Assembly (NCBI GenBank): GCA_937141405.1 | Contig: CAKZQQ010000005.1 | Location: forward strand, 558,001 to 622,000 | Reading direction: 5' to 3' | DNA: 64,000 nucleotides | Source of the DNA: an uncultured Campylobacterota bacterium | Lineage (GTDB): Bacteria; Campylobacterota; Campylobacteria; Campylobacterales; Sulfurovaceae | In this document: one piece after another, positions 18,401 to 27,900 of the stretch | Numbering within the stretch: the first letter of the stretch is position 1 | How the letters are laid out: each line of letters starts with the position of its first letter | Notes under the pieces: generated by a model | Seen by the model: the letters and a program-made list of their open reading frames with translations, nothing else | What the model was told of the DNA's origin: nothing | Database searches by the model: none | Position numbers and translations under genes: made by a program

Positions 18401-18429
18401 TTGACATCTTAATCGTTATATCATAAAAT
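18401..18429 (+). promoter_or_regulatory. Sigma-70 promoter of the TonB/ABC transport operon
   Basis: TTGACA at 18401-18406 and TAAAAT at 18424-18429 are separated by exactly 17 bases, the best promoter match in the window. The -10 box and part of the spacer lie inside the palindrome at 18412-18439, so a bound repressor would block RNA polymerase. Confidence 0.8.
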
Positions 18430-18439
18430 ATATAACGAA
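18412..18439 (+). promoter_or_regulatory. Palindromic operator 1, ModE-box-like
   Basis: Perfect 9-bp inverted repeat TCGTTATAT / ATATAACGA (18413-18421 and 18430-18438, 8-base spacer), that is CGTTAT-N12-ATAACG. It has the half-sites and spacing of the E. coli modA operator bound by the molybdate sensor ModE, as I recall that site and the published proteobacterial ModE consensus. It covers the -10 box of the operon promoter. The assignment to ModE is by pattern recall, not by a search; the palindrome itself is certain. A second copy of the same form is at 21133-21160. Confidence 0.75.
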
Positions 18440-18459
18440 AACTTAGGGGAATAACAATT

Positions 18460-19371
18460 ATGAAAATAGGACTAATGCTACTCTATGAAAATTGGGGTAA
18501 TGACTATAAAAAAGCTTTTGATAATCAGCATGAGATGATCTTACTTGGCGAACAATTGGGACTCGAAGAGGTATGGATCACAGAACACCACTTTAACAAG
18601 TTTAGTCTCAGTTCATCCATTATTGCCCTCATGGGATATATCGCGGCAATCACAAAAACTATGCGCGTTGGTACGGCTTCGATACTAACACCGATCTATG
18701 ATCCAATCATCGTGGCTGAGGCTGTCGCAACGCTGAGCATTCTAAGTAACGGTAGATTTAATTTTGGTGTAGCAAGAGGCGGTCCTTTTGAAAAACAGTG
18801 TGCAATGTTTGATTTTGAAAACTCACGAGAAAAGATGCTTCAACACCTTGATCAGATTAATAACCATCTCAAAAAAGAGAGTAATGTTGTCCCAAAACCT
18901 CTTAGCAACATCCCAACGTTTATAGCTTCTAAACATGAAAAATCTATACAGTTTGCCGCACAAAGAGGTATCGGACTGATGGCAGCACACCTCTGGTCAA
19001 ATGAGATTATCCAAGAGATGATAAACCAATACAAAAAAGCTCACTCTCAAAATTTGGCTCCACAAATGATGTGTTCAAGAGGCTTTTATATGGCAAAAAC
19101 AAACAATGAAGCAATCAATGAAGCGTTACCTTCTCTTAAGAGATTTAGAGAACAGATGGAAGCTCAAGGCATCAGTAGTCCTATCTTTTATGATGAAAAT
19201 TACTGGATCGATAATGGAGTTATCGGAGATAAAGATACTTGTCTGCAAAAAATCAAAGAACTACAAGCACTAGGCATCACAAACCTTGCATTAAAACCAA
19301 TCGCAAACGATATAGATAAAAACAAAAAATCTTTAGAGCTTTTTGCCAAAGAAGTCATGGTGAACTTATGA
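18460..19371 (+). CDS. LLM-class (luciferase-like) flavin-dependent oxidoreductase
   Basis: 303 residues with the bacterial luciferase-like TIM-barrel: MKIGLMLLYENWG at the N-terminus, EEVWITEHHFN near 37-47, TASILTPIYDPIIVAEAVATLSILSNGRFNFGVARG in the middle, and a C-terminal GITNLALKP strand. Members use reduced flavin and oxygen, or F420, to oxidise small organics. The class includes alkanesulfonate, NTA and EDTA monooxygenases. It is the first gene of a nine-gene metal/chelate import operon and overlaps the permease by four bases. A role in oxidising an imported chelator to free its metal is plausible but inferred. AGGGGA lies 9 bases before the ATG; no flavin reductase is nearby. Confidence 0.85.
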   Translation: MKIGLMLLYENWGNDYKKAFDNQHEMILLGEQLGLEEVWITEHHFNKFSLSSSIIALMGYIAAITKTMRVGTASILTPIYDPIIVAEAVATLSILSNGRFNFGVARGGPFEKQCAMFDFENSREKMLQHLDQINNHLKKESNVVPKPLSNIPTFIASKHEKSIQFAAQRGIGLMAAHLWSNEIIQEMINQYKKAHSQNLAPQMMCSRGFYMAKTNNEAINEALPSLKRFREQMEAQGISSPIFYDENYWIDNGVIGDKDTCLQKIKELQALGITNLALKPIANDIDKNKKSLELFAKEVMVNL

Positions 19372-20363
19372 GATATATTGTAGGACTTATCATCATCTTG
19401 ATACTTGTTGCTCTGTTTTCGCTCTCGTTGGGGCAATATGAGTTGAGTATATCACAAATCATCGACTTCTTTTTATACAAGATGAATATAGGCACTGTAG
19501 ATAATGCTCTGCTTATGCAAAATATCATCGTGGAGATTAGATTCCCACGTATCGCAGGCTCTATTCTCATAGGAGCTTCATTGGCTGTTTCGGGTGTAGC
19601 TTTTCAATCCATGTTTAAAAATCCCTTAGTCTCTCCGGGCATACTGGGTGTACTCTCGGGAGCATCATTCGGCGCTGCACTTGGGATGATCTTATTTAAA
19701 GAGTTTATTTTTATCCAAGCTGCATCTTTGAGTTTTGGAATTTTGGCGGTATTTATAGCACTTTTTATCTCTATGTTCAATAAACAAAATCAACTGATAT
19801 TTCTTATACTTGGCGGCGTGATAAGCTCTGCATTTTTTAGCTCCCTACTTTCCATTACTAAATATATGGCTGACCCATATGATGAACTGCCTGCTATCGT
19901 TTATTGGCTCATGGGAAGCTTGACTCTCATAGACAAACATACTATCTATGTCATCTCCATTCCTATTTTACTTGGAATAGCTTCGATTATCTTCCTCTCA
20001 AAATACCTCAATATCTTGAGTCTAGGGGACGAGGAGGCTAGAAGCTTAGGAGTCAATGTAAAATTGATGCGCTCTATCATTATATTGATAGCAACACTTA
20101 TCAGTGCTTTAACTGTAGTATTGGCCGGAATGATCGGCTGGGTTGGTCTCGTCATCCCGCATATTGCACGACTATTATTTGGCTCGAACAACATCATCAT
20201 CGTACCTATCGCTGCTCTCATAGGCGGAATATATCTTCTGATTATCGATGATCTCTCTCGTACAATGTTTAACATCGAGATACCTATCGGCATTCTTACT
20301 TCGTTGATCGGCATTCCGTTTTTTGCTTATGCACTCAAAAATACAAAAAAAGGATGGGGATAA
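19368..20363 (+). CDS. FecCD/BtuC-type ABC transporter permease
   Basis: 331 residues with about nine to ten transmembrane helices and the landmarks of type II importers: RFPRIAGSILIGASLAVSGVAFQSMFKNPLVSPGILGVLSGASFGAALG (in parts, about 52-105), GDEEARSLGVNV as the coupling region near 222-233, and GLVIPHIARLLFG near 261. This fold transports vitamin B12, siderophores, heme and, in Haemophilus MolBC, molybdate/tungstate. It overlaps the upstream gene by 4 bases (ATGA) and the ATPase by 1 (TAATG). The substrate cannot be read from the permease. The ModE-like operators point to Mo or W. Confidence 0.93.
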   Translation: MRYIVGLIIILILVALFSLSLGQYELSISQIIDFFLYKMNIGTVDNALLMQNIIVEIRFPRIAGSILIGASLAVSGVAFQSMFKNPLVSPGILGVLSGASFGAALGMILFKEFIFIQAASLSFGILAVFIALFISMFNKQNQLIFLILGGVISSAFFSSLLSITKYMADPYDELPAIVYWLMGSLTLIDKHTIYVISIPILLGIASIIFLSKYLNILSLGDEEARSLGVNVKLMRSIIILIATLISALTVVLAGMIGWVGLVIPHIARLLFGSNNIIIVPIAALIGGIYLLIIDDLSRTMFNIEIPIGILTSLIGIPFFAYALKNTKKGWG

Positions 20364-21121
20364 TGTTTAGAGTTGAAGATTTGAAATTTTCTTACGGGAA
20401 AAAAGACATTTTAAAAGGGGTAAACTTTGAGATAGATGCCTCGGATGTAATCTCAATCTTAGGACCAAACGGTTGCGGCAAAACGACTCTTCTTAAGCTT
20501 TTATTGGGATTTTTAAAACTTTCAAGCGGAGAGATTTACTTTGAAGGTAAAGCTATTAGCACTATAAAAACAAAAAGTTTTTTTCAAAGAGTAGCCTACA
20601 CCCCGCAGATACATGAGGGAGCATTCGGATATCTTGTGAAAGATGTTGTTCTTATGGGGAGGATGCCCTATAAATCAATCTTTTCAAACTTCAATGAGGC
20701 AGATAAAAAAATCGCGATGCAAGCTCTCGAGACACTAGGGATTGAACACTTAAGAGATGAGATATATACGACACTCAGCGGTGGACAAAGACAATTAGTA
20801 CTTATAGCAAGAGCGCTTGCTCAGCAAGCCGACATTTTTATCATGGATGAACCCGTCAACGGTTTAGATTTTGGCAATCAGTATAAGCTGCTCAATAAAA
20901 TAAAAGAGCTTTCAAAAAATAATTTGACTTTTATAAAAACGAGTCACTATCCTGACCATGTTTTTTTCGTCTCAAATAAAGCTATTTTTTTAAATAAAGG
21001 GGAAATTTTGGATAAAGGAGACCCAAATGTAATCATCAGAAAAGAGAATATAGAAAAAGTTTATCAATTAAAATCTGAAGTGACTTCTATAAACAATAGA
21101 AAAATCTGCGTAGCAATATAA
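20363..21121 (+). CDS. ABC transporter ATP-binding protein (FecE/BtuD/MolC type)
   Basis: 252 residues. Walker A GPNGCGKTT at about 35, Q-loop TPQIHEG, signature LSGGQRQL at about 136, Walker B ADIFIMDEP at about 154, and an H-loop in TSHYPDHV. I start at the ATG at 20363, which shares its A with the permease stop (TAATG) and has AAGGA 8 bases upstream. The ATG at 20354 follows that site with no gap. It energises the adjacent permease at the inner membrane. Fifty-two bases separate it from the receptor gene; they hold a second promoter/operator. Confidence 0.94.
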   Translation: MFRVEDLKFSYGKKDILKGVNFEIDASDVISILGPNGCGKTTLLKLLLGFLKLSSGEIYFEGKAISTIKTKSFFQRVAYTPQIHEGAFGYLVKDVVLMGRMPYKSIFSNFNEADKKIAMQALETLGIEHLRDEIYTTLSGGQRQLVLIARALAQQADIFIMDEPVNGLDFGNQYKLLNKIKELSKNNLTFIKTSHYPDHVFFVSNKAIFLNKGEILDKGDPNVIIRKENIEKVYQLKSEVTSINNRKICVAI

Positions 21122-21127
21122 AAAATT

Positions 21128-21160
21128 TATAATGCGTTATATATTTTTTTAAATAACGAA
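21128..21160 (+). promoter_or_regulatory. Internal promoter and palindromic operator 2, ModE-box-like
   Basis: TATAAT at 21128-21133 is followed by CGTTAT (21135-21140), 12 bases, and ATAACG (21153-21158). Half-sites and spacing are identical to operator 1. The palindrome ends just before the AAGGAAG ribosome site of the receptor gene, so it would cover the start point of an internal transcript. The poly-T centre differs from operator 1, which makes conservation of the arms significant. The ModE assignment is inferred as for operator 1. Confidence 0.68.
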
Positions 21161-21173
21161 AGGAAGAAGGGGT

Positions 21174-23387
21174 ATGAAAAACTATTTACATCTAATAACA
21201 CTAAGTTTGGTCTGCACAATAGCATCGACACAAGAGAGTGTAGACATCGGAACTATCGATATCAGCGATTCAAAAAATGCTGAATTTTATGATATTAACG
21301 GCGCGAGACAAAAGCATCTCATCAGTAAAGAGGCACTCGAAGCCCTAGAAGGAGTGAGCTCAACCAATTATTTTAAAGCACTTGAGCTCTTACCATCCGT
21401 TAATGTGGAAACGCATGATCCATACAACTTAACCGTTGATCAGAATATGCTAAGAGTAAGGGGGCAATTAGGAGATACTTTTAGCAGATTAAGCGCAACA
21501 ATCGAAGGTGTTCCCTATGGATCAAATGTCGGGAAATCAGGAACGGGATACCTTATTGACAAAGAAAATATCGAAGGTGTTGAGTTCTCCACGGGACTTA
21601 TCGCAGCCAATGAAGGGTTCGGCATGGGAACAACAGCCGGCTCACTCAATCTAAAGATTGCAAAACCAAAGGATGAAGCAAAAGCTACACTCTCGCTTGG
21701 AGGAGGAACAGATAATTATAGAAAAATCTTTGTGCGCGCAGATAGCGGAAAGATAAATGACACTTTTAGCTTCTTTATCTCTACCTCAGCTATGGAAAAT
21801 GCAAAGTGGAAAGGTGAAGGGGATATAAAAAGGAAAAATGTTGAGGGTATGGTCACGATAGATCTAACCGATAACCTTGATATCGAACTTTTTGGCTCAT
21901 ACAATCATTTCGAGAGATATGAGTATATGCCGCTGACTTATGAACAAACACAATCTTTAGGCTCAAACTATAAACTCGATTACAATACAGAGATAACGGG
22001 CAATAAATTTACAGATGCTCTTTATTATGACTACTACAAACAAGATTTTGATGAGTATTTCTATTATGCGGCTGCAAATTATAAAATGGGTGATACAAAG
22101 ATTACGATAAAACCCTACACATTTGGTAGTGAAGGGATGAGGTATCAAGGTGATCCAAGCAAGGGCATCGTTAAAAAAATGAATATCGAACAAGAAGCAT
22201 ACGGAGTAAATGCGGATTTTGAACACCCTTTAGCAGGCGGTAAACTCTATGGTGGGTGGTGGTATCAAAAGATGGAAAGCACTCCCCCGCCTAACATTAT
22301 GAAAACCTATAAGATAAATAGTGATGGTAGCTTAACATATGCTTCTACGGCTATGCTTGTCGATGTAGAAAAAAGAGTTTCAAACTCGCCCTATATAGGG
22401 TATGAAAAAGAAATAGGGAAATTTTATATCAATGCAGGATTGCGCTACATGATGTTTGATTTCCCTGCCGTCACCGGATACAATACGACAGGACTCGCCG
22501 ATCTCTCTTTTGAAGATGCCCTTGCTGCAAGTTCCGGTGTTAAAACCGGTATGGAGGTTGACGCAAGCAGTGAAAAAGTGCTTCTACCGAGTTTGGTACT
22601 CGAATATACTTTTAATGACAGTTGGAAGATAGGCGGAGGTTATGCTAGAAACTATGCAAATCCTTGGCAAGGTCCTCTATGGTCTATATACAATTCAAAA
22701 ACGCAAAAATTTCAAGACGCAGGTATAACGCTCCAAGACTTGTGGGATGAATTAAAGCTTGAAACAAGTGATAATATAGAGTTCTCTACTCAATACACTC
22801 AAGACAATTTTTCCATAAAAAATACACTCTTTTATGGCAAATATAAAAATAAACAGATAACCGTATATGATCCAAATATCAATCTAAGCTATTATAAAAG
22901 TAATGCAGAGGCAACTTCGATGGGAGCAGAGCTAGAAGCTACTTATAAGATCGCTGATTATGCAAGCGTATTTGCTTCTGCTTACTATAATAGATTTGAG
23001 TTTGATGACGATATATTGCTTGCGACAGATAGCTATCTGCACGCAAAAGGCAATCAGATACCGGATATAGCAAAAATAGGCGCGAAAGCCGGCATCAACT
23101 TGACTTTCGGCGATTGTACGCTAACACCTATCGCCAGATATGTCGGTGCTCGTTACGGAGATGCGGAAAATACAGAAAAGGTTGATCCGTATCTTGTCTT
23201 TGATCTCAATTTAAAATACGCATTTAAAAAAGACAAAATTGAACTTTCACTTGCTTTGCAAAATGTATTTGATAAAAAATATGTAGGTGTTGTCTCAAAC
23301 AGCTTAGATGATACAAGAACAGGTTCTACATCATATTATGTAGGTGCACCGTTTGCGGCAGTTGCAAACTTTGTATATAGGTATTGA
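21174..23387 (+). CDS. TonB-dependent outer-membrane receptor 1
   Basis: 737 residues: signal peptide (about 1-19), TonB box-like SVDIGTIDIS near 23-32, plug domain to about 170 (LRVRGQLGDTFSRLSATIEGVPYGS, then a YLIDKENIEGVEFSTG segment), and a 22-strand barrel ending in the aromatic NFVYRY. It takes up scarce solutes across the outer membrane using the proton-driven TonB complex. Plug motifs resemble siderophore/B12-type receptors, but the barrel gives no substrate. It lies directly behind operator 2 and upstream of the binding protein. Only one cysteine is seen (in FGDCTLTP near the C-terminus), so no disulfide is expected within the barrel. Confidence 0.92.
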   Translation: MKNYLHLITLSLVCTIASTQESVDIGTIDISDSKNAEFYDINGARQKHLISKEALEALEGVSSTNYFKALELLPSVNVETHDPYNLTVDQNMLRVRGQLGDTFSRLSATIEGVPYGSNVGKSGTGYLIDKENIEGVEFSTGLIAANEGFGMGTTAGSLNLKIAKPKDEAKATLSLGGGTDNYRKIFVRADSGKINDTFSFFISTSAMENAKWKGEGDIKRKNVEGMVTIDLTDNLDIELFGSYNHFERYEYMPLTYEQTQSLGSNYKLDYNTEITGNKFTDALYYDYYKQDFDEYFYYAAANYKMGDTKITIKPYTFGSEGMRYQGDPSKGIVKKMNIEQEAYGVNADFEHPLAGGKLYGGWWYQKMESTPPPNIMKTYKINSDGSLTYASTAMLVDVEKRVSNSPYIGYEKEIGKFYINAGLRYMMFDFPAVTGYNTTGLADLSFEDALAASSGVKTGMEVDASSEKVLLPSLVLEYTFNDSWKIGGGYARNYANPWQGPLWSIYNSKTQKFQDAGITLQDLWDELKLETSDNIEFSTQYTQDNFSIKNTLFYGKYKNKQITVYDPNINLSYYKSNAEATSMGAELEATYKIADYASVFASAYYNRFEFDDDILLATDSYLHAKGNQIPDIAKIGAKAGINLTFGDCTLTPIARYVGARYGDAENTEKVDPYLVFDLNLKYAFKKDKIELSLALQNVFDKKYVGVVSNSLDDTRTGSTSYYVGAPFAAVANFVYRY

Positions 23388-23389
23388 TT

Positions 23390-24442
23390 ATGAAAAAACT
23401 CTACCTATTTTTAGCACTCATCTTACTCTCATGTAGCCTTTTTGCCGATTCAGAGCATACGGTTATTGATATGACAGGACAAAAAGTTATCGTGCCCGAT
23501 AAGATCGAAGGGGTACTCAGCGTAGGCGGCACTCCGGCTATCAATGCCTTTTTGTTTGCTTTTGGTAAAGCAGATATCATCAAAAACGGTGTACAAAATG
23601 AGCATCTCAAAAAGATGCCGTTTTGGAAACACCAACAGTGGTTTATGCCAAAAATCTTTGAGTTGCCGCAAGTCTCCACAAATCCTCCTTCTTGGACGCC
23701 TGATTTTGAAAAAATGGCACAAACAAAATTTGATCTTGCCTTTGTTAACGATAGTCTCTCGGCTCAAATGTTACAAAAAAGGGGTTACAGGGTTGTTGTA
23801 ATGAATTGGCAAGGCGAAAACATCATAGAAAGAAGTATGACTTTCATGGGCGAACTTTTCAATATGCAAGATCACGCAAAAGAGTATATCGATTACTATC
23901 ACAATATTCTCAAAACGGCAAAAAATAGAACAGAAGATATCAAAGATAGAAAAAGTGCACTCTTTTTGAGACTCAACAACCTAATGATACCCATGGTCTC
24001 AACATCAAATGATATCTTTAAAAAAGCCGGAGGGATTAGCGCATCTGAGCATATCAAGAAAGAGCATGCCCTCATCAACATGGAACAACTCTTTGTATTT
24101 GACCCTGATTATCTCTTTGTTTGGGGCAAAGGAGACTTGAGACTTGCCTATAACGACCCAAAATTTAAAGACCTCAAAGCTGTCAAAAATCATAATGTTT
24201 ACGCCGTACCGCTTGGGGCATTTTTTTGGACAAACTATACACCTGAGCAAGCTCTTTGCATATTATGGGCAGCAAAAAAGATGTATCCGGAAGAATTTAA
24301 AGATATAGATATGCAAAAAGAGACTCAAGATTTCTATAGAAGATTTATGGGAAAAGAGTTAACAGCCCAACAGCTACAAGAGATACTAAGCACTAAAAAA
24401 GATCAAAATCAACCACAACTAATAAAGGAAAACAATGAGTAA
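23390..24442 (+). CDS. Periplasmic substrate-binding protein (FecB/BtuF/MolA type)
   Basis: 350 residues, helical-backbone class (Peripla_BP_2). The signal peptide ends either as LLSC with lipidated Cys15 or by cleavage after LFA (19). Then come DMTGQKVIVPDKIEGVLSVG, the usual opening strand, and a C-terminal lobe with DYLFVWGKGD and VKNHNVYAVP. It delivers ligand to the neighbouring permease. I choose the ATG at 23390, overlapping the receptor stop region; a TTG six bases earlier is unlikely. It overlaps the next receptor by 8 bases. Unlike most operons it sits between two outer-membrane receptors, suggesting both feed it. Confidence 0.88.
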   Translation: MKKLYLFLALILLSCSLFADSEHTVIDMTGQKVIVPDKIEGVLSVGGTPAINAFLFAFGKADIIKNGVQNEHLKKMPFWKHQQWFMPKIFELPQVSTNPPSWTPDFEKMAQTKFDLAFVNDSLSAQMLQKRGYRVVVMNWQGENIIERSMTFMGELFNMQDHAKEYIDYYHNILKTAKNRTEDIKDRKSALFLRLNNLMIPMVSTSNDIFKKAGGISASEHIKKEHALINMEQLFVFDPDYLFVWGKGDLRLAYNDPKFKDLKAVKNHNVYAVPLGAFFWTNYTPEQALCILWAAKKMYPEEFKDIDMQKETQDFYRRFMGKELTAQQLQEILSTKKDQNQPQLIKENNE

Positions 24443-26429
24443 AAAATATAAAAGCTTAGCTGCAGGACTGCTTTTAGGCAGTTCACTTTATGGGACACAA
24501 GAGATTCAAATAGAACAGATAGATGTCACAAGCAATACAAAAATAAAAACAATGCAAGATATTCAAAACGAACAGATCAATAATCCGCTAGCAGCAACGG
24601 TAAGCTCATCTCTTTCAACCGAAACGTTTACAAAAAAGGATATAGAAAATTTGAAACCGGCATCGGTCTTTGATATTTTAAGTAAAGCGCAGAGTGTGAA
24701 TGTTTTATTCATGGGAAGAAAACAAGCCTACACAATCTCTTTTAGGGGGAGTCCTATCGGTGTAGGAAGCAGCTCGTTTGGTATCATTTTGGATGGAGCT
24801 TTGCTCAGTGATAACTCCGGAAGAAGAATCCTTGAGACACTCCCACCGGAGATAATCGAATCCCTAGAGATTGTCAGAGATTCAGGAGCATTAACTCTTG
24901 CACCGATGCAAGCTTTTGGTAATCCAAACGGCTCAACACTACAAGGTTATATCGTCATCAAAACAAAACGACCAAACACAAATGAAGGCGGTATAAAAAT
25001 AGCGTATGAATCTTTCGATACAAAAAAAGCAAACGCCTATTATGGTGGTGTCAACAATGATCTATATTATCTAATCTCAGCAAATGGATTGGACACCGAG
25101 GGGAAGAATGATTTTAATAATGCCAATGAAGGCGGAAGCAGTTTTTTTAAAATAGGAATGAATAAAAATGACTTCAATATAGAGTTGAGCGGATATTACT
25201 CTCGATACTTTCAAGAGATACAAAAAGCAAATCTGCCTATGAGTAAATTTTACAATGCTTATTGGAAATACAAACCTTTTGAAAACAGGCTCATCACTCT
25301 CTCAATGAGTAAAAATTGGTCTGCCAATCAGATAACGAACATCACTCTCTCTCATGCAAAAGCAAGCTGGAAGCATAATCAAGACACAACCGGGGCTACC
25401 GATAACTATTTTTCAGGGGTGCAAAAAAATGATTCTCTCGACATAAAACATACAATGAAATTGTCTGATACTATTGTAAAAATCGGTGGACAAGCCATTT
25501 GGTATGATGCTCCAAATGGAGAGCTCTTTTATGAAGACTATGCAAGAAAAGAACAGATCTACGGAGCCTTTATCCAAGTGCAACACTACATTAACGATCA
25601 ATTTGCGATAGATGGCGCTATACGAGTAGACAAAAAACATATCGATACGCTTCTAGAAAGATATAGCCCGAATGTTACAACCACCTATGGCGGCATGGTC
25701 AACAATACAAAGCTCTCAACCATAGAAGATAAATGGACTAAAGCCGCTTTTAATGTAGCAGCCGGTGCGCTCTATAAACTCGATGAAAGCAATGCCTTTA
25801 CTTTGAAACTCGCTTATACTTCTAATGCGCCCGCAAGTGAAATCAGCACGGCTACGGGATATGATTTAGAAAAGGAGGAGCAGTATAAATATGAGATCGG
25901 TTATGAGTTTGCTCCTAAAAACTTTACGATAGCAGCAAATATCTTTTACTACGATATCAACAACCTCAAATCTCCCTATTATATAGGAACTGCGGCTGAT
26001 CCTGAAATAGTCTTTGGTCAGTATGATCAAAAAAGATATGGCGGAGAGCTATCCCTTGGAGGCAAGATTGACTCTTTTGACTATTTACTCAATTATGCTT
26101 ATGTTAAAGCAGATGAGAAAGACAATGAGATACCAAACCACCTAGCTACGCTCCAACTTGGCTATACACAAGGAAATATAAATACAAATATTACGGCGCA
26201 CTACATAAGTAAGTTCCAATCCAATTTTTTTACTACCGATGGGAAATATCATGATGTAGGTGATTTTGTGACCATAGATGCAGGCTTGGATTATAACCAT
26301 AAATTAAAAGATTACGATGCGGTTGCATCAATCTATGGAAGAAATATAACGAATCAAAAATACATGACAAAGATTGGCTGGGAAAATGTAGGTTCCGTAT
26401 TTGGCATCAGTTATGCAGTAAAATTTTAA
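24435..26429 (+). CDS. TonB-dependent outer-membrane receptor 2
   Basis: 664 residues: signal peptide (about 1-20), TonB box-like EIQIEQIDVTS near 21-31, plug (RQAYTISFRG-like segment, then IILDGALLSDNSGRRILETLPPEIIESLEIVRD, quoted in part, ending TKRP near 182) and a barrel ending with the aromatic YAVKF. The plug contains SGALTLAP and NPNGSTLQGYIVIKTKRP in the family pattern. It is not closely similar to receptor 1 by eye, so the two probably recognise different forms of the ligand. AAAGGA precedes the ATG, which overlaps the binding-protein gene. exbB follows after 10 bases. Confidence 0.9.
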   Translation: MSKKYKSLAAGLLLGSSLYGTQEIQIEQIDVTSNTKIKTMQDIQNEQINNPLAATVSSSLSTETFTKKDIENLKPASVFDILSKAQSVNVLFMGRKQAYTISFRGSPIGVGSSSFGIILDGALLSDNSGRRILETLPPEIIESLEIVRDSGALTLAPMQAFGNPNGSTLQGYIVIKTKRPNTNEGGIKIAYESFDTKKANAYYGGVNNDLYYLISANGLDTEGKNDFNNANEGGSSFFKIGMNKNDFNIELSGYYSRYFQEIQKANLPMSKFYNAYWKYKPFENRLITLSMSKNWSANQITNITLSHAKASWKHNQDTTGATDNYFSGVQKNDSLDIKHTMKLSDTIVKIGGQAIWYDAPNGELFYEDYARKEQIYGAFIQVQHYINDQFAIDGAIRVDKKHIDTLLERYSPNVTTTYGGMVNNTKLSTIEDKWTKAAFNVAAGALYKLDESNAFTLKLAYTSNAPASEISTATGYDLEKEEQYKYEIGYEFAPKNFTIAANIFYYDINNLKSPYYIGTAADPEIVFGQYDQKRYGGELSLGGKIDSFDYLLNYAYVKADEKDNEIPNHLATLQLGYTQGNINTNITAHYISKFQSNFFTTDGKYHDVGDFVTIDAGLDYNHKLKDYDAVASIYGRNITNQKYMTKIGWENVGSVFGISYAVKF

Positions 26430-26439
26430 GGAGTAGATA

Positions 26440-26868
26440 ATGGTGGAATTGATAAAAATATATATTGAATATTCGATAATGGGTGTTTTGGGCTTGATGA
26501 GTTTTTTAACACTTTGGTTTGGATTGGAGCGAATATTCTTTCTCAATAGAGTTGATATAACAAAATTTAAGAAAAAGGGTGAGATTGAAAACAGACTCAC
26601 CGCAAATTTGACAACTATCTCAACAATCGCATCCAATGCCCCCTATATAGGACTCTTTGGAACAGTTTGCGGCATCATGATAACTTTTTATAAGATATCC
26701 CAAGATGCAAATATCGATACAAACAGTGTTATGTTAGGGCTTGCTCTTGCCCTGAAGGCAACAGCTGCCGGAATACTCGTAGCGATCTTTGCAACCGTCT
26801 TTCATAATGCTCTAGCTAGAAAAGCTGAGGTACTGATCACGCAATGGGAAGATTTACATGAAGATTAA
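26440..26868 (+). CDS. exbB: ExbB-type proton channel subunit
   Basis: 142 residues, the compact ExbB form of this phylum, with three transmembrane helices (about 6-28, 65-87, 100-125) and the MotA/TolQ/ExbB core APYIGLFGTVCGIMITFYKIS followed by LALKATAAGILVAI. With ExbD it converts proton flow into TonB motion. TAAGGAG straddles the receptor stop and gives good initiation. It overlaps exbD by 11 bases. The presence of a private motor in the operon means both receptors are energised by its own TonB system. Confidence 0.93.
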   Translation: MVELIKIYIEYSIMGVLGLMSFLTLWFGLERIFFLNRVDITKFKKKGEIENRLTANLTTISTIASNAPYIGLFGTVCGIMITFYKISQDANIDTNSVMLGLALALKATAAGILVAIFATVFHNALARKAEVLITQWEDLHED

Positions 26869-27238
26869 GAAGTTTGACTCCATGAATGTGATTCCCTTTA
26901 TAGATATCATGCTCGTACTTTTAACGATCGTATTGACCTTTTCAACATTTATCGCACAAGGCAGGCTTGATCTTCAACTGCCAAAATCCTCAACAACAGA
27001 AGAGGTTGATCTCAAATTAAAAGAACTTATCATCGATAGATCGGGAGTCATTACACTTGAAGATAAGACGGTTGAACTCCAAGAGCTCAAAACAGAACTT
27101 GCGAGTATGCCAAAAACAACAAATGTCTCCATAAAAGCTGATGAAAATACTCCCTTTAAAACATTTGTAGCGGTAATCAACATCTTCAAAGAGCTTAAGA
27201 TGGAAAAGATATCTATAGTTACGGAGTTGAAGAAATGA
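26858..27238 (+). CDS. exbD: ExbD-type biopolymer transport protein
   Basis: 126 residues: a short cytoplasmic start, one transmembrane helix (about 10-30) carrying the essential proton-conducting Asp in IPFIDIMLVLLTI at about residue 14, then a periplasmic domain ending in ELKKL-type strands (VINIFKELKMEKISIVTELK). It completes the ExbB-ExbD channel. Overlaps with both neighbours (11 bases with exbB, 4 with tonB) show tight translational coupling. Confidence 0.94.
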   Translation: MKIKKFDSMNVIPFIDIMLVLLTIVLTFSTFIAQGRLDLQLPKSSTTEEVDLKLKELIIDRSGVITLEDKTVELQELKTELASMPKTTNVSIKADENTPFKTFVAVINIFKELKMEKISIVTELKK

Positions 27239-27900
27239 ACAGCACTACAAAAGCTTTTTTTATCTCCTTAAGCCTACATCTAGGAGTTTTTGGAGCACTT
27301 GTCCTCTATGAGCCCAAAAAGGAGGAGAAGAAAAAATTAATCGTTCTTAGCATGAATATGGTTGAAAATATTACGCAGATCAAAAAGATAGATACACCAA
27401 AAGAGGTAGACGATACCAAGGAAGAAAAAAAGCAAGAAGAGAGCAAAGAGGAGAAGGTGGAGAAAAAAGTTGAAAAAAAGATTGTAAAAAAACCCTCCCA
27501 ACTAAAAAAGAAAAAGATACAAAAAAAAATAGCGAAAATAAAAAAGATTCAGCCGAAAATAAAACCGAATGATAAAAACAATATCAAGCGTATAAAGAGT
27601 GGAGAAAGCTATCAAGAACAGTATATGAGAACGAATCTGGAAAATATTATTGCCGCTATCAAGAGACATAAAAACTACCCCCACTCGGCAAAAAACAAAG
27701 AGATAGAAGGCAAGGTCGTACTCAAATGCATCATCACTCCAAAAGGTGGCGTAAAGGATATAGGATTTGTAAAAAAATCCTCCTCAAGCATACTCAATCA
27801 AAACAGTATCAATATCTTAAAGAAAGCGTCAAAAGAGTTTATCGCACCGCTTAAAGAGATAGAGATTATCATTCCTTTTAATTATGAACTAATCATGTAA
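27235..27900 (+). CDS. tonB: TonB energy transducer
   Basis: 221 residues: an N-terminal membrane anchor (about 8-24, FFISLSLHLGVFGALVLY with the conserved Ser-His pair), a long periplasmic spacer unusually rich in Lys and Glu (about 30-120, few prolines), and the TonB C-terminal fold (about 130-221: YPHSAKNKEIEGKVVLKCIITPKGGV, in part, and an IPFNYELIM end). It spans the periplasm to touch the TonB boxes of the receptors. The Lys/Glu spacer replaces the Pro-rich one of E. coli; charged helical spacers are common in Campylobacterota. Last gene of the operon. Confidence 0.93.
   Translation: MNSTTKAFFISLSLHLGVFGALVLYEPKKEEKKKLIVLSMNMVENITQIKKIDTPKEVDDTKEEKKQEESKEEKVEKKVEKKIVKKPSQLKKKKIQKKIAKIKKIQPKIKPNDKNNIKRIKSGESYQEQYMRTNLENIIAAIKRHKNYPHSAKNKEIEGKVVLKCIITPKGGVKDIGFVKKSSSSILNQNSINILKKASKEFIAPLKEIEIIIPFNYELIM

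Follow-up and report, generated by a model that had tools for sequence, protein, structure and literature searches.

Gene content of the operon

The window (the whole stretch of DNA that was analysed, 64,000 nucleotides) contains, at 18460-27900, nine + strand open reading frames that overlap or are separated by short gaps. A Pfam search matched all nine products to families above cut-off (Bac_luciferase, FecCD, ABC_tran, two TonB receptor barrels, Peripla_BP_2, MotA_ExbB, ExbD and TonB_C). These positions and matches bear out an earlier note on this DNA, which had predicted nine co-directional genes of such families. The genes and their putative control elements are as follows.

18401..18429, + strand: sigma-70-like promoter, TTGACA-17-TAAAAT; 11/12 consensus bases, best match in the region
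18414..18437, no strand assigned: ModE box 1, perfect palindrome CGTTATATCATAAAATATATAACG, matching CGTTAT-N12-ATAACG
18460..19371, + strand: luciferase-like (FMN-type) monooxygenase, MsnO8-like; PF00296, 145 bits
19368..20363, + strand: FecCD/BtuC-type permease; PF01032, 272 bits; nearest solved structure MolB (HI1471)
20354..21121, + strand: ABC ATPase; nearest solved structure MolC (HI1470), 2NQ2_C, 153 bits
21135..21158, no strand assigned: ModE box 2, CGTTATATATTTTTTTAAATAACG, a perfect match to CGTTAT-N12-ATAACG, 5' of receptor 1
21174..23387, + strand: TonB-dependent outer-membrane receptor 1, 737 aa; PF00593, 111 bits
23384..24442, + strand: type II (Peripla_BP_2) substrate-binding protein; PF01497, 71 bits
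24435..26429, + strand: TonB-dependent outer-membrane receptor 2, 664 aa; PF00593, 65 bits, and Plug, 38 bits
26440..26868, + strand: ExbB; TIGR02805, 169.5 bits, above cut-off
26858..27238, + strand: ExbD; PF02472, 83 bits
27235..27900, + strand: TonB; PF03544, 50.5 bits

The binding-protein gene begins with TTG and overlaps that of receptor 1 by 4 bases. The parts of a TonB-dependent system are present, namely plug-barrel receptors together with ExbB-ExbD-TonB, the plug domain of receptor 1 being only weakly matched in Pfam. The receptor families themselves do not reveal the substrate.

ModE-type boxes at the operon and across the genome

The −10 element of the promoter falls within ModE box 1, and the motif of both boxes is identical to the published E. 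coli ModE consensus, ATCGNTATATA-N6-TATATANCGAT (PMC545781). Genome-wide box scans were run as pattern searches. Perfect copies of CGTTAT-N12-ATAACG number two in the 1.75-Mb genome, where ~0.19 would be expected, and both lie in the operon; as the sole perfect pair in the genome, they uphold the earlier assignment of the palindromes to the ModE operator type. A looser scan of the window (≤2 mismatches over 12 fixed bases) returned 3 sites against 2.3 expected, which taken alone is not significant. When longer half sites of the E. coli type were used in a 16-base form, CGTTATAT-N8-ATATAACG, the genome gave 8 sites at ≤2 mismatches, all within four Mo-related or receptor loci, and dinucleotide shuffles of these four loci (n=100) gave none. 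Against the boxes counts a reversed control pattern, which at ≤2 mismatches had 5 matches in two of six relatives.

Two other sites were set aside as chance: one at C3:156136, inside a flavoprotein gene, and one at C5:453900, with 3 mismatches to the long box.

The palindromes had also been said not to be Fur boxes, and this was confirmed: no Fur-like box was found before the operon, where the best match has 7 mismatches. Boxes with 3-5 mismatches do precede four further receptors of this genome, which are of iron type.

A ModE protein and its predicted regulon

A search for modE in the same genome, one of the checks that the earlier note had called for, found a full-length gene encoding a 259-aa protein with HTH and molybdate-binding TOBE domains. 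The product scores 93.3 bits against TIGR00637, slightly below the curated cut-off of 98.5, aligns with positions 11-259 of 263 of NF007957 (127.8 bits; cut-off 369), and has a Mop/TOBE domain match. However, modE occurs in 153 of 200 genomes of the class, so its mere presence says little, and genome-level co-occurrence of receptor and modE is uninformative; adjacency was used instead.

The gene adjoins porin-modA-mop-modB-modC, an operon that includes its own OprD-type porin for small solutes, and boxes at C3:179873 and 179938 lie between modE and this operon. Together the box loci comprise the studied operon, that of modE/mod, a second operon with a receptor and a permease, and a third with a receptor and a TupA-like protein. 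The other suggested check, a genome-wide scan, also favoured the earlier reading, the further sites lying before mod genes or receptor operons, one of them with the TupA-like gene. The paired boxes 5' of the mod operon and of the second receptor operon stand in homologous promoter DNA.

The TTTS motif and Arg118 have been implicated in tungstate binding by TupA (PMC5517513). Both are replaced in the TupA-like protein of the third operon (C8) and in its relatives, and both are kept in the true TupA of another locus (L073). The third operon also encodes a helical protein for which a fold search gave no match at E≤0.001, from a poor model (mean pLDDT 60). A homologue of this protein in genome G223 has no evident Mo context.

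Relationship to the MolBC-A importer

Against solved structures, the permease matched 2NQ2_A (MolB) with 230 bits, FhuB with 194 and BtuC with 126, and 2NQ2 was the best match for both permease and ATPase. The control, this genome's Fur-associated permease, was nearest HmuU. The suggestion that the inner-membrane part is compatible with a type II importer for molybdate is therefore supported, the permease and ATPase being nearest to MolB and MolC.

The binding protein is less decisive. It has the same fold as MolA, which ranks third (3PSA) among its fold neighbours and fourth in a profile search, after 4PAG, 4OVK and 4HN9; it is equally close to iron-chelate proteins (4HN9, YiuA, 2ETV) and to MolA.

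MolBC-A (HI1470-1472) is a type II ABC importer for molybdate/tungstate in Haemophilus influenzae, where molB expression drops with molybdate, a likeness to the control proposed here (PMC4031551). That system has low affinity, and the same paper describes neither a dedicated outer-membrane receptor nor a TonB motor with it (PMC4031551). To this plan the operon adds two receptors, ExbBD-TonB, the monooxygenase and ModE boxes.

Related clusters in other genomes

In other Campylobacterota (Sulfurovum UBA7648, G010, G107, G167, G054 and others), the gene set with ModE boxes adjoins modABC, tupABC or wtpABC, and in six or more further genomes boxes stand at genes of these kinds. Neighbouring genes include mod, tup, wtp, mop, modD and fmdE. 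Relatives of receptor 1 adjoin mod/modE genes and relatives of receptor 2 occur in the same clusters; among receptor-bearing genomes, the receptor lies within 7 kb of modE in four of seven. The monooxygenase relatives likewise adjoin the same transport genes, and elsewhere the enzyme is accompanied by methyltransferases and a globin.

More distantly, a related receptor adjoins modE-mop-modA in Burkholderiales and modC/modA/modB with FmdE in Desulfobacteraceae. ModE boxes are absent at the Sulfuricurvum, Burkholderiales and Desulfobacteraceae loci. Distant receptor relatives that are box-free (L068, L071, L072) were left out of the member count. One isolated box, in genome G013 (L050), has neither a Mo nor a receptor gene downstream and is unexplained.

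Proposed function and alternative readings

We conclude that the operon is quite probably a ModE-controlled importer of Mo or W, leaving aside the chemical form of the metal; there are no transport, binding or expression data. Sequence shows the genes and boxes, modE, membership of the regulon, the closeness to MolBC and the conserved clustering with Mo/W genes; repression by ModE at the boxes is inferred, without molybdate-dependent binding or expression data. In the proposed mechanism, when molybdate (or tungstate) is plentiful in the cytoplasm, ModE would sit on the boxes at 18414-18437 and 21135-21158 and block transcription; under metal scarcity the operon would be expressed. Receptors 1 and 2, powered by the operon-encoded ExbB-ExbD-TonB, would then bring the metal compound through the outer membrane, and the binding protein would deliver it to the permease/ATPase of MolBC type. 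Most probably the cargo would be Mo or W on an organic ligand produced by other organisms, and the monooxygenase may cleave or alter this ligand in the cytoplasm, freeing the metal. The parts of this scheme are inferred with unequal confidence: Mo or W as the cargo is held with good confidence, an organic chelate over the bare oxyanion is only slightly favoured, and the monooxygenase as a cytoplasmic ligand-breaking or ligand-modifying enzyme is doubtful.

The chelate is favoured on account of the separate porin of the mod operon and the TupA-like protein without oxyanion-binding residues. These same features weigh against the rather unlikely alternative in which regulon and metals are unchanged and the cargo is bare molybdate/tungstate or an inorganic thio- or poly-oxo form, with the receptors acting as high-affinity scavengers at very low free Mo/W, for example in sulfidic water. 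Bare oxyanions cross porins, and it is not obvious what the monooxygenase, methyltransferases and globin would do for an inorganic ion. This alternative nonetheless draws support from Haemophilus MolBC-A, which carries bare molybdate (PMC4031551), from the Burkholderiales receptor that adjoins modA, an oxyanion binder, and from the tupABC and wtpABC neighbours elsewhere.

Uptake of an iron siderophore (or haem, B12 or nickel) under ModE, for instance to supply iron for molybdoenzymes, is improbable. Its protein families are indeed those of siderophore uptake, and iron-chelate binders are among the structural neighbours of the binding protein; yet the operon lacks the Fur box that other receptors of the genome have, its permease and ATPase are nearest to MolB and MolC, and its counterparts in other genomes neighbour Mo/W genes. 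A further account, that chance AT-rich palindromes accompany ordinary iron uptake, has next to nothing left in its favour. The loose scan of the window is about what chance would give, but this account is already contradicted by the excess of perfect sites and by the recurrence of boxes at genes of similar kind in other genomes. Chance matching and plain iron uptake were both rejected on the perfect sites, the boxes at four loci, their absence from shuffles and the lack of a Fur box.

Comparison with known systems and significance

The siderophore systems Fec, Fhu, Fep and Hmu share with the operon a receptor, TonB-ExbB-ExbD, a Peripla_BP_2 protein, a FecCD permease and an ATPase; unlike them, the operon has ModE-type instead of Fur boxes and adjoins Mo/W genes elsewhere. 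The modABC operons of E. coli and Geobacter have the same operator consensus and regulator, and no TonB-dependent receptor is reported in these ModE regulons, as far as the available parts of the sources go (PMC545781, PMC2700814). The H2-T6SS ModA-IcmP route of P. aeruginosa is likewise a dedicated outer-membrane route for molybdate, but uses secreted ModA and outer-membrane IcmP with no TonB-dependent receptor (PMC8602904).

Organic chelation of Mo has a precedent in Azotobacter, whose catechol siderophores azotochelin and protochelin carry Mo as an organic chelate. No ModE-controlled dedicated receptor for them was found in the literature searched. In the genome studied here, neither NRPS condensation nor IucA/IucC genes were found, so any chelator would need an outside source or be of another type.

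Iron, haem, B12, nickel, zinc, copper, manganese and lanthanides all have known TonB-dependent carriers (covered only in part by PMC8602904). None for Mo or W was found in the open literature searched; subscription journals lay mostly outside this search, and an earlier mention is possible. We tentatively raise the possibility, in which our confidence falls somewhat short of even, of an undescribed class of TonB-dependent Mo/W metallophore systems, with ModE-controlled receptors, foreign organic chelators, a MolBC-like importer and metal-releasing cytoplasmic enzymes (luciferase-like monooxygenase, methyltransferases, globin), in several Campylobacterota families and some Desulfobacteraceae and Burkholderiales.

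Nitrogen, sulfur and formate metabolism is driven by Mo and W. In sulfidic water, the habitat of such sulfur-cycling bacteria, these metals can be in short supply or thiolated. If the proposal is true, some receptors now annotated for siderophores would be Mo/W receptors, and the operon would offer a direct genetic handle for finding environmental molybdophores.

Operon structure and promoter

The main operon comprises nine co-directional open reading frames, which overlap by a few bases or stand no more than 52 bases apart. Pfam placed each of the nine in the family that the earlier note had given it, and the two palindromes described there are real and perfect.

18401-18429: best promoter-like site of the region, TTGACA-17-TAAAAT
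18414-18437: first palindrome
18460-27900, + strand: luciferase-like monooxygenase, FecCD permease, ATPase, TonB-dependent receptor 1, Peripla_BP_2 binding protein, TonB-dependent receptor 2, ExbB, ExbD and TonB, in that order
21135-21158: second palindrome

The first palindrome overlaps the promoter-like site, whose -10 hexamer sits within it. For this predicted promoter, such an arrangement is the geometry of a repressor.

ModE-type operators across the genome

A loose palindrome scan of the window alone gave a count not above chance, so the case needed a genome-wide test. In the draft assembly (GCA_937141405.1; 1.75 Mb, 98% complete), perfect CGTTAT-N12-ATAACG occurs at only two sites, both in the main operon, against 0.19 expected from base composition. 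Full E. coli-type half sites (CGTTATAT-N8-ATATAACG, at most two mismatches) were found eight times, all within four loci, shuffled copies of which contained none.

ModE-type boxes in the genome
Main operon: two sites
Between modE and the porin-modA-mop-modB-modC operon: pair, 65 bases apart
5' of the second uptake operon: pair, 66 bases apart
5' of the third operon (on another contig): pair, 66 bases apart

The aligned sites match the published ModE consensus, ATCGNTATATA-N6-TATATANCGAT (PMC545781). The genome-wide operator scan proposed in the earlier note, when run with the full half sites, places the other boxes at the modE/mod operon and two further receptor operons, and modE, without which its reading would fail, is present and adjoins porin-modA-mop-modB-modC. 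The modE product aligns almost end to end with the full-length family model and has a Mop/TOBE domain, but falls below strict cut-offs (DNA-binding domain model, 93.3 versus 98.5 bits). The promoters of the mod and second uptake operons share homologous DNA spanning both boxes. The paired boxes at three promoters (L012 8748-8837 and 13874-13962; L013 6688-6777; excerpts of contigs C3 and C8, respectively) lie about six helical turns apart, a spacing that suggests cooperative binding or looping.

Eleven TonB receptors are encoded in the genome. Upstream of the main operon and of the other two receptor operons with ModE boxes, no Fur-like match is better than 6-7 mismatches, which is background level and upholds the earlier reading that the operator is not a Fur box. 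Four other receptors have Fur-like matches with 3, 4, 4 and 5 mismatches and no ModE box 5' of them. The receptors of this genome thus fall into a Fur set and a ModE set, with some left unassigned.

The second uptake operon, next to the mod operon, encodes a binding protein, TonB receptor, cytochrome-b-like membrane protein, second binding protein, permease, ATPase, methyltransferase and globin. The third (L013 2948-6744) encodes a TonB receptor, a TupA-like binding protein and a wholly helical protein that belongs to no known family; no other TupA relative turned up in the genome. In this TupA-like protein and its relatives, the TTTS motif and Arg118, which have been implicated in the binding of tungstate, are lost, while the true TupA of L073 retains both.

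The first gene of the mod operon, under paired boxes, encodes an OprD-type porin (L012 12404-13864), and related porins stand alone under ModE-type boxes in genomes G232 and G107 (L083, L082, L048, L049); this suggests a porin dedicated to molybdate. The genome also encodes, in a sulfur-metabolism region (L011 8370-10835), an 821-aa protein judged molybdopterin-oxidoreductase-like from reading its sequence, a likely consumer of Mo.

Relatives of the importer proteins

The closest solved relatives of the permease and ATPase are MolB (HI1471) and MolC (HI1470) of the Haemophilus influenzae molybdate importer; the permease scores 230 bits with MolB, then 194 with FhuB, 151 with HmuU and 126 with BtuC. 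A control permease, taken from a cluster of this genome whose receptor is Fur-associated, is instead closest to the haem permease HmuU (258 bits; MolB, 173). The binding protein is less telling evidence for Mo/W than the permease and ATPase: MolA comes third in the comparison by predicted fold (model mean pLDDT 85) and fourth in that by profile, and the relatives around it include iron-chelate proteins such as YiuA.

Related clusters in other genomes

The receptor family occurs in 7 of 200 sampled genomes of the class, and scanning genome contigs with both receptors gave ten loci. A 19-kb stretch of Sulfurovum sp. UBA7648 is arranged as follows.

First part: mop-modB-modC, globin, box, tonB-like gene, binding protein, receptor
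Middle: permease, ATPase, binding protein, box, globin, receptor-1 relative, binding protein
End: methyltransferase, monooxygenase, third-operon receptor, TupA-like protein, methyltransferase, box

Variants of this cluster occur in G010 (same genus), a Sulfurimonas MAG and a Helicobacteraceae MAG; the Sulfurimonas locus carries modD (above cut-off) between ATPase and binding protein. In three of the six receptor-bearing genomes other than the window's own, the receptor lies within 7 kb of a modE, with boxes (G107, beside modE-modABC; G167, beside wtpA-wtpC and exbB-exbD-tonB; G232), and in G054 tupABC lies alongside the related permease operon.

In six relatives, boxes that depart from the motif by no more than one base mostly fall within receptor/Mo-W clusters. 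The remainder precede an OprD-like porin (G232) or cluster-family methyltransferases (G054), with one in G054 lacking an evident link. A reversed control pattern, run at two mismatches, still gave hits in two relatives, where a weak single box is therefore unreliable alone. A Burkholderiales locus (modE, receptor, mop, modA, modBC-like genes) and a Desulfobacteraceae locus (receptors, binding proteins, permease, ATPase, FmdE, DUF364, modC, modB, modA) contain no E. coli-type boxes, and their link to Mo genes is adjacency alone.

Several further features were observed. In the Desulfobacteraceae cluster, FmdE and DUF364 (putative heavy-metal chelation) lie between binding protein and permease (L045 4977-6477). 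Nearly all of the uptake clusters with ModE boxes contain a Bac_globin that has invariant histidines (L012 799-1380; L040 1937-2491 and 9366-9971; L049, L043, L042, L066, L070, L073), its Mo/W role unexplained. One G054 protein (L085 3-1469) apparently joins a radical-SAM-like part to a region resembling the cluster's binding proteins; its gene overlaps a methyltransferase gene start, with a ModE-type box between. A perfect palindrome in G013 (L050 6202-6225) neighbours a beta-CASP hydrolase and a P-type ATPase, with no adjoining Mo or receptor gene.

Discussion

ModE control, type II molybdate importers and TonB-dependent metal receptors are already known. Their combination in a ModE-controlled, TonB-dependent outer-membrane Mo/W route was not found in the open literature searched; subscription journals and regulon databases were outside that scope, and a prior prediction is possible. 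The only dedicated outer-membrane molybdate route met in the literature searched is that of P. aeruginosa, formed by type VI-secreted ModA and IcmP (PMC8602904).

The receptor cargo is inferred rather than shown, with an organic chelate as the favoured candidate. Free molybdate would be served by the porin that the mod operon already has; the residues implicated in tungstate binding are missing from the TupA-like protein and its relatives; it is not obvious what the cluster enzymes (luciferase-like monooxygenase, methyltransferases, globin) would do with an inorganic ion; and this class of importer usually carries chelates. Against a chelate stands MolBC-A itself, which moves bare molybdate with low affinity (PMC4031551). 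Since neither an NRPS condensation domain nor an IucA/IucC enzyme was found in the genome, any chelator would be foreign or of other chemistry.

The best-supported model for the main operon, drawn from sequence without experiment, combines ModE repression with TonB/MolBC-like import. Metal-loaded ModE would repress the operon, and Mo/W shortage would induce it; the two receptors would then provide TonB-powered passage for the cargo, which the binding protein would capture for ATP-driven entry via the MolBC-like importer.
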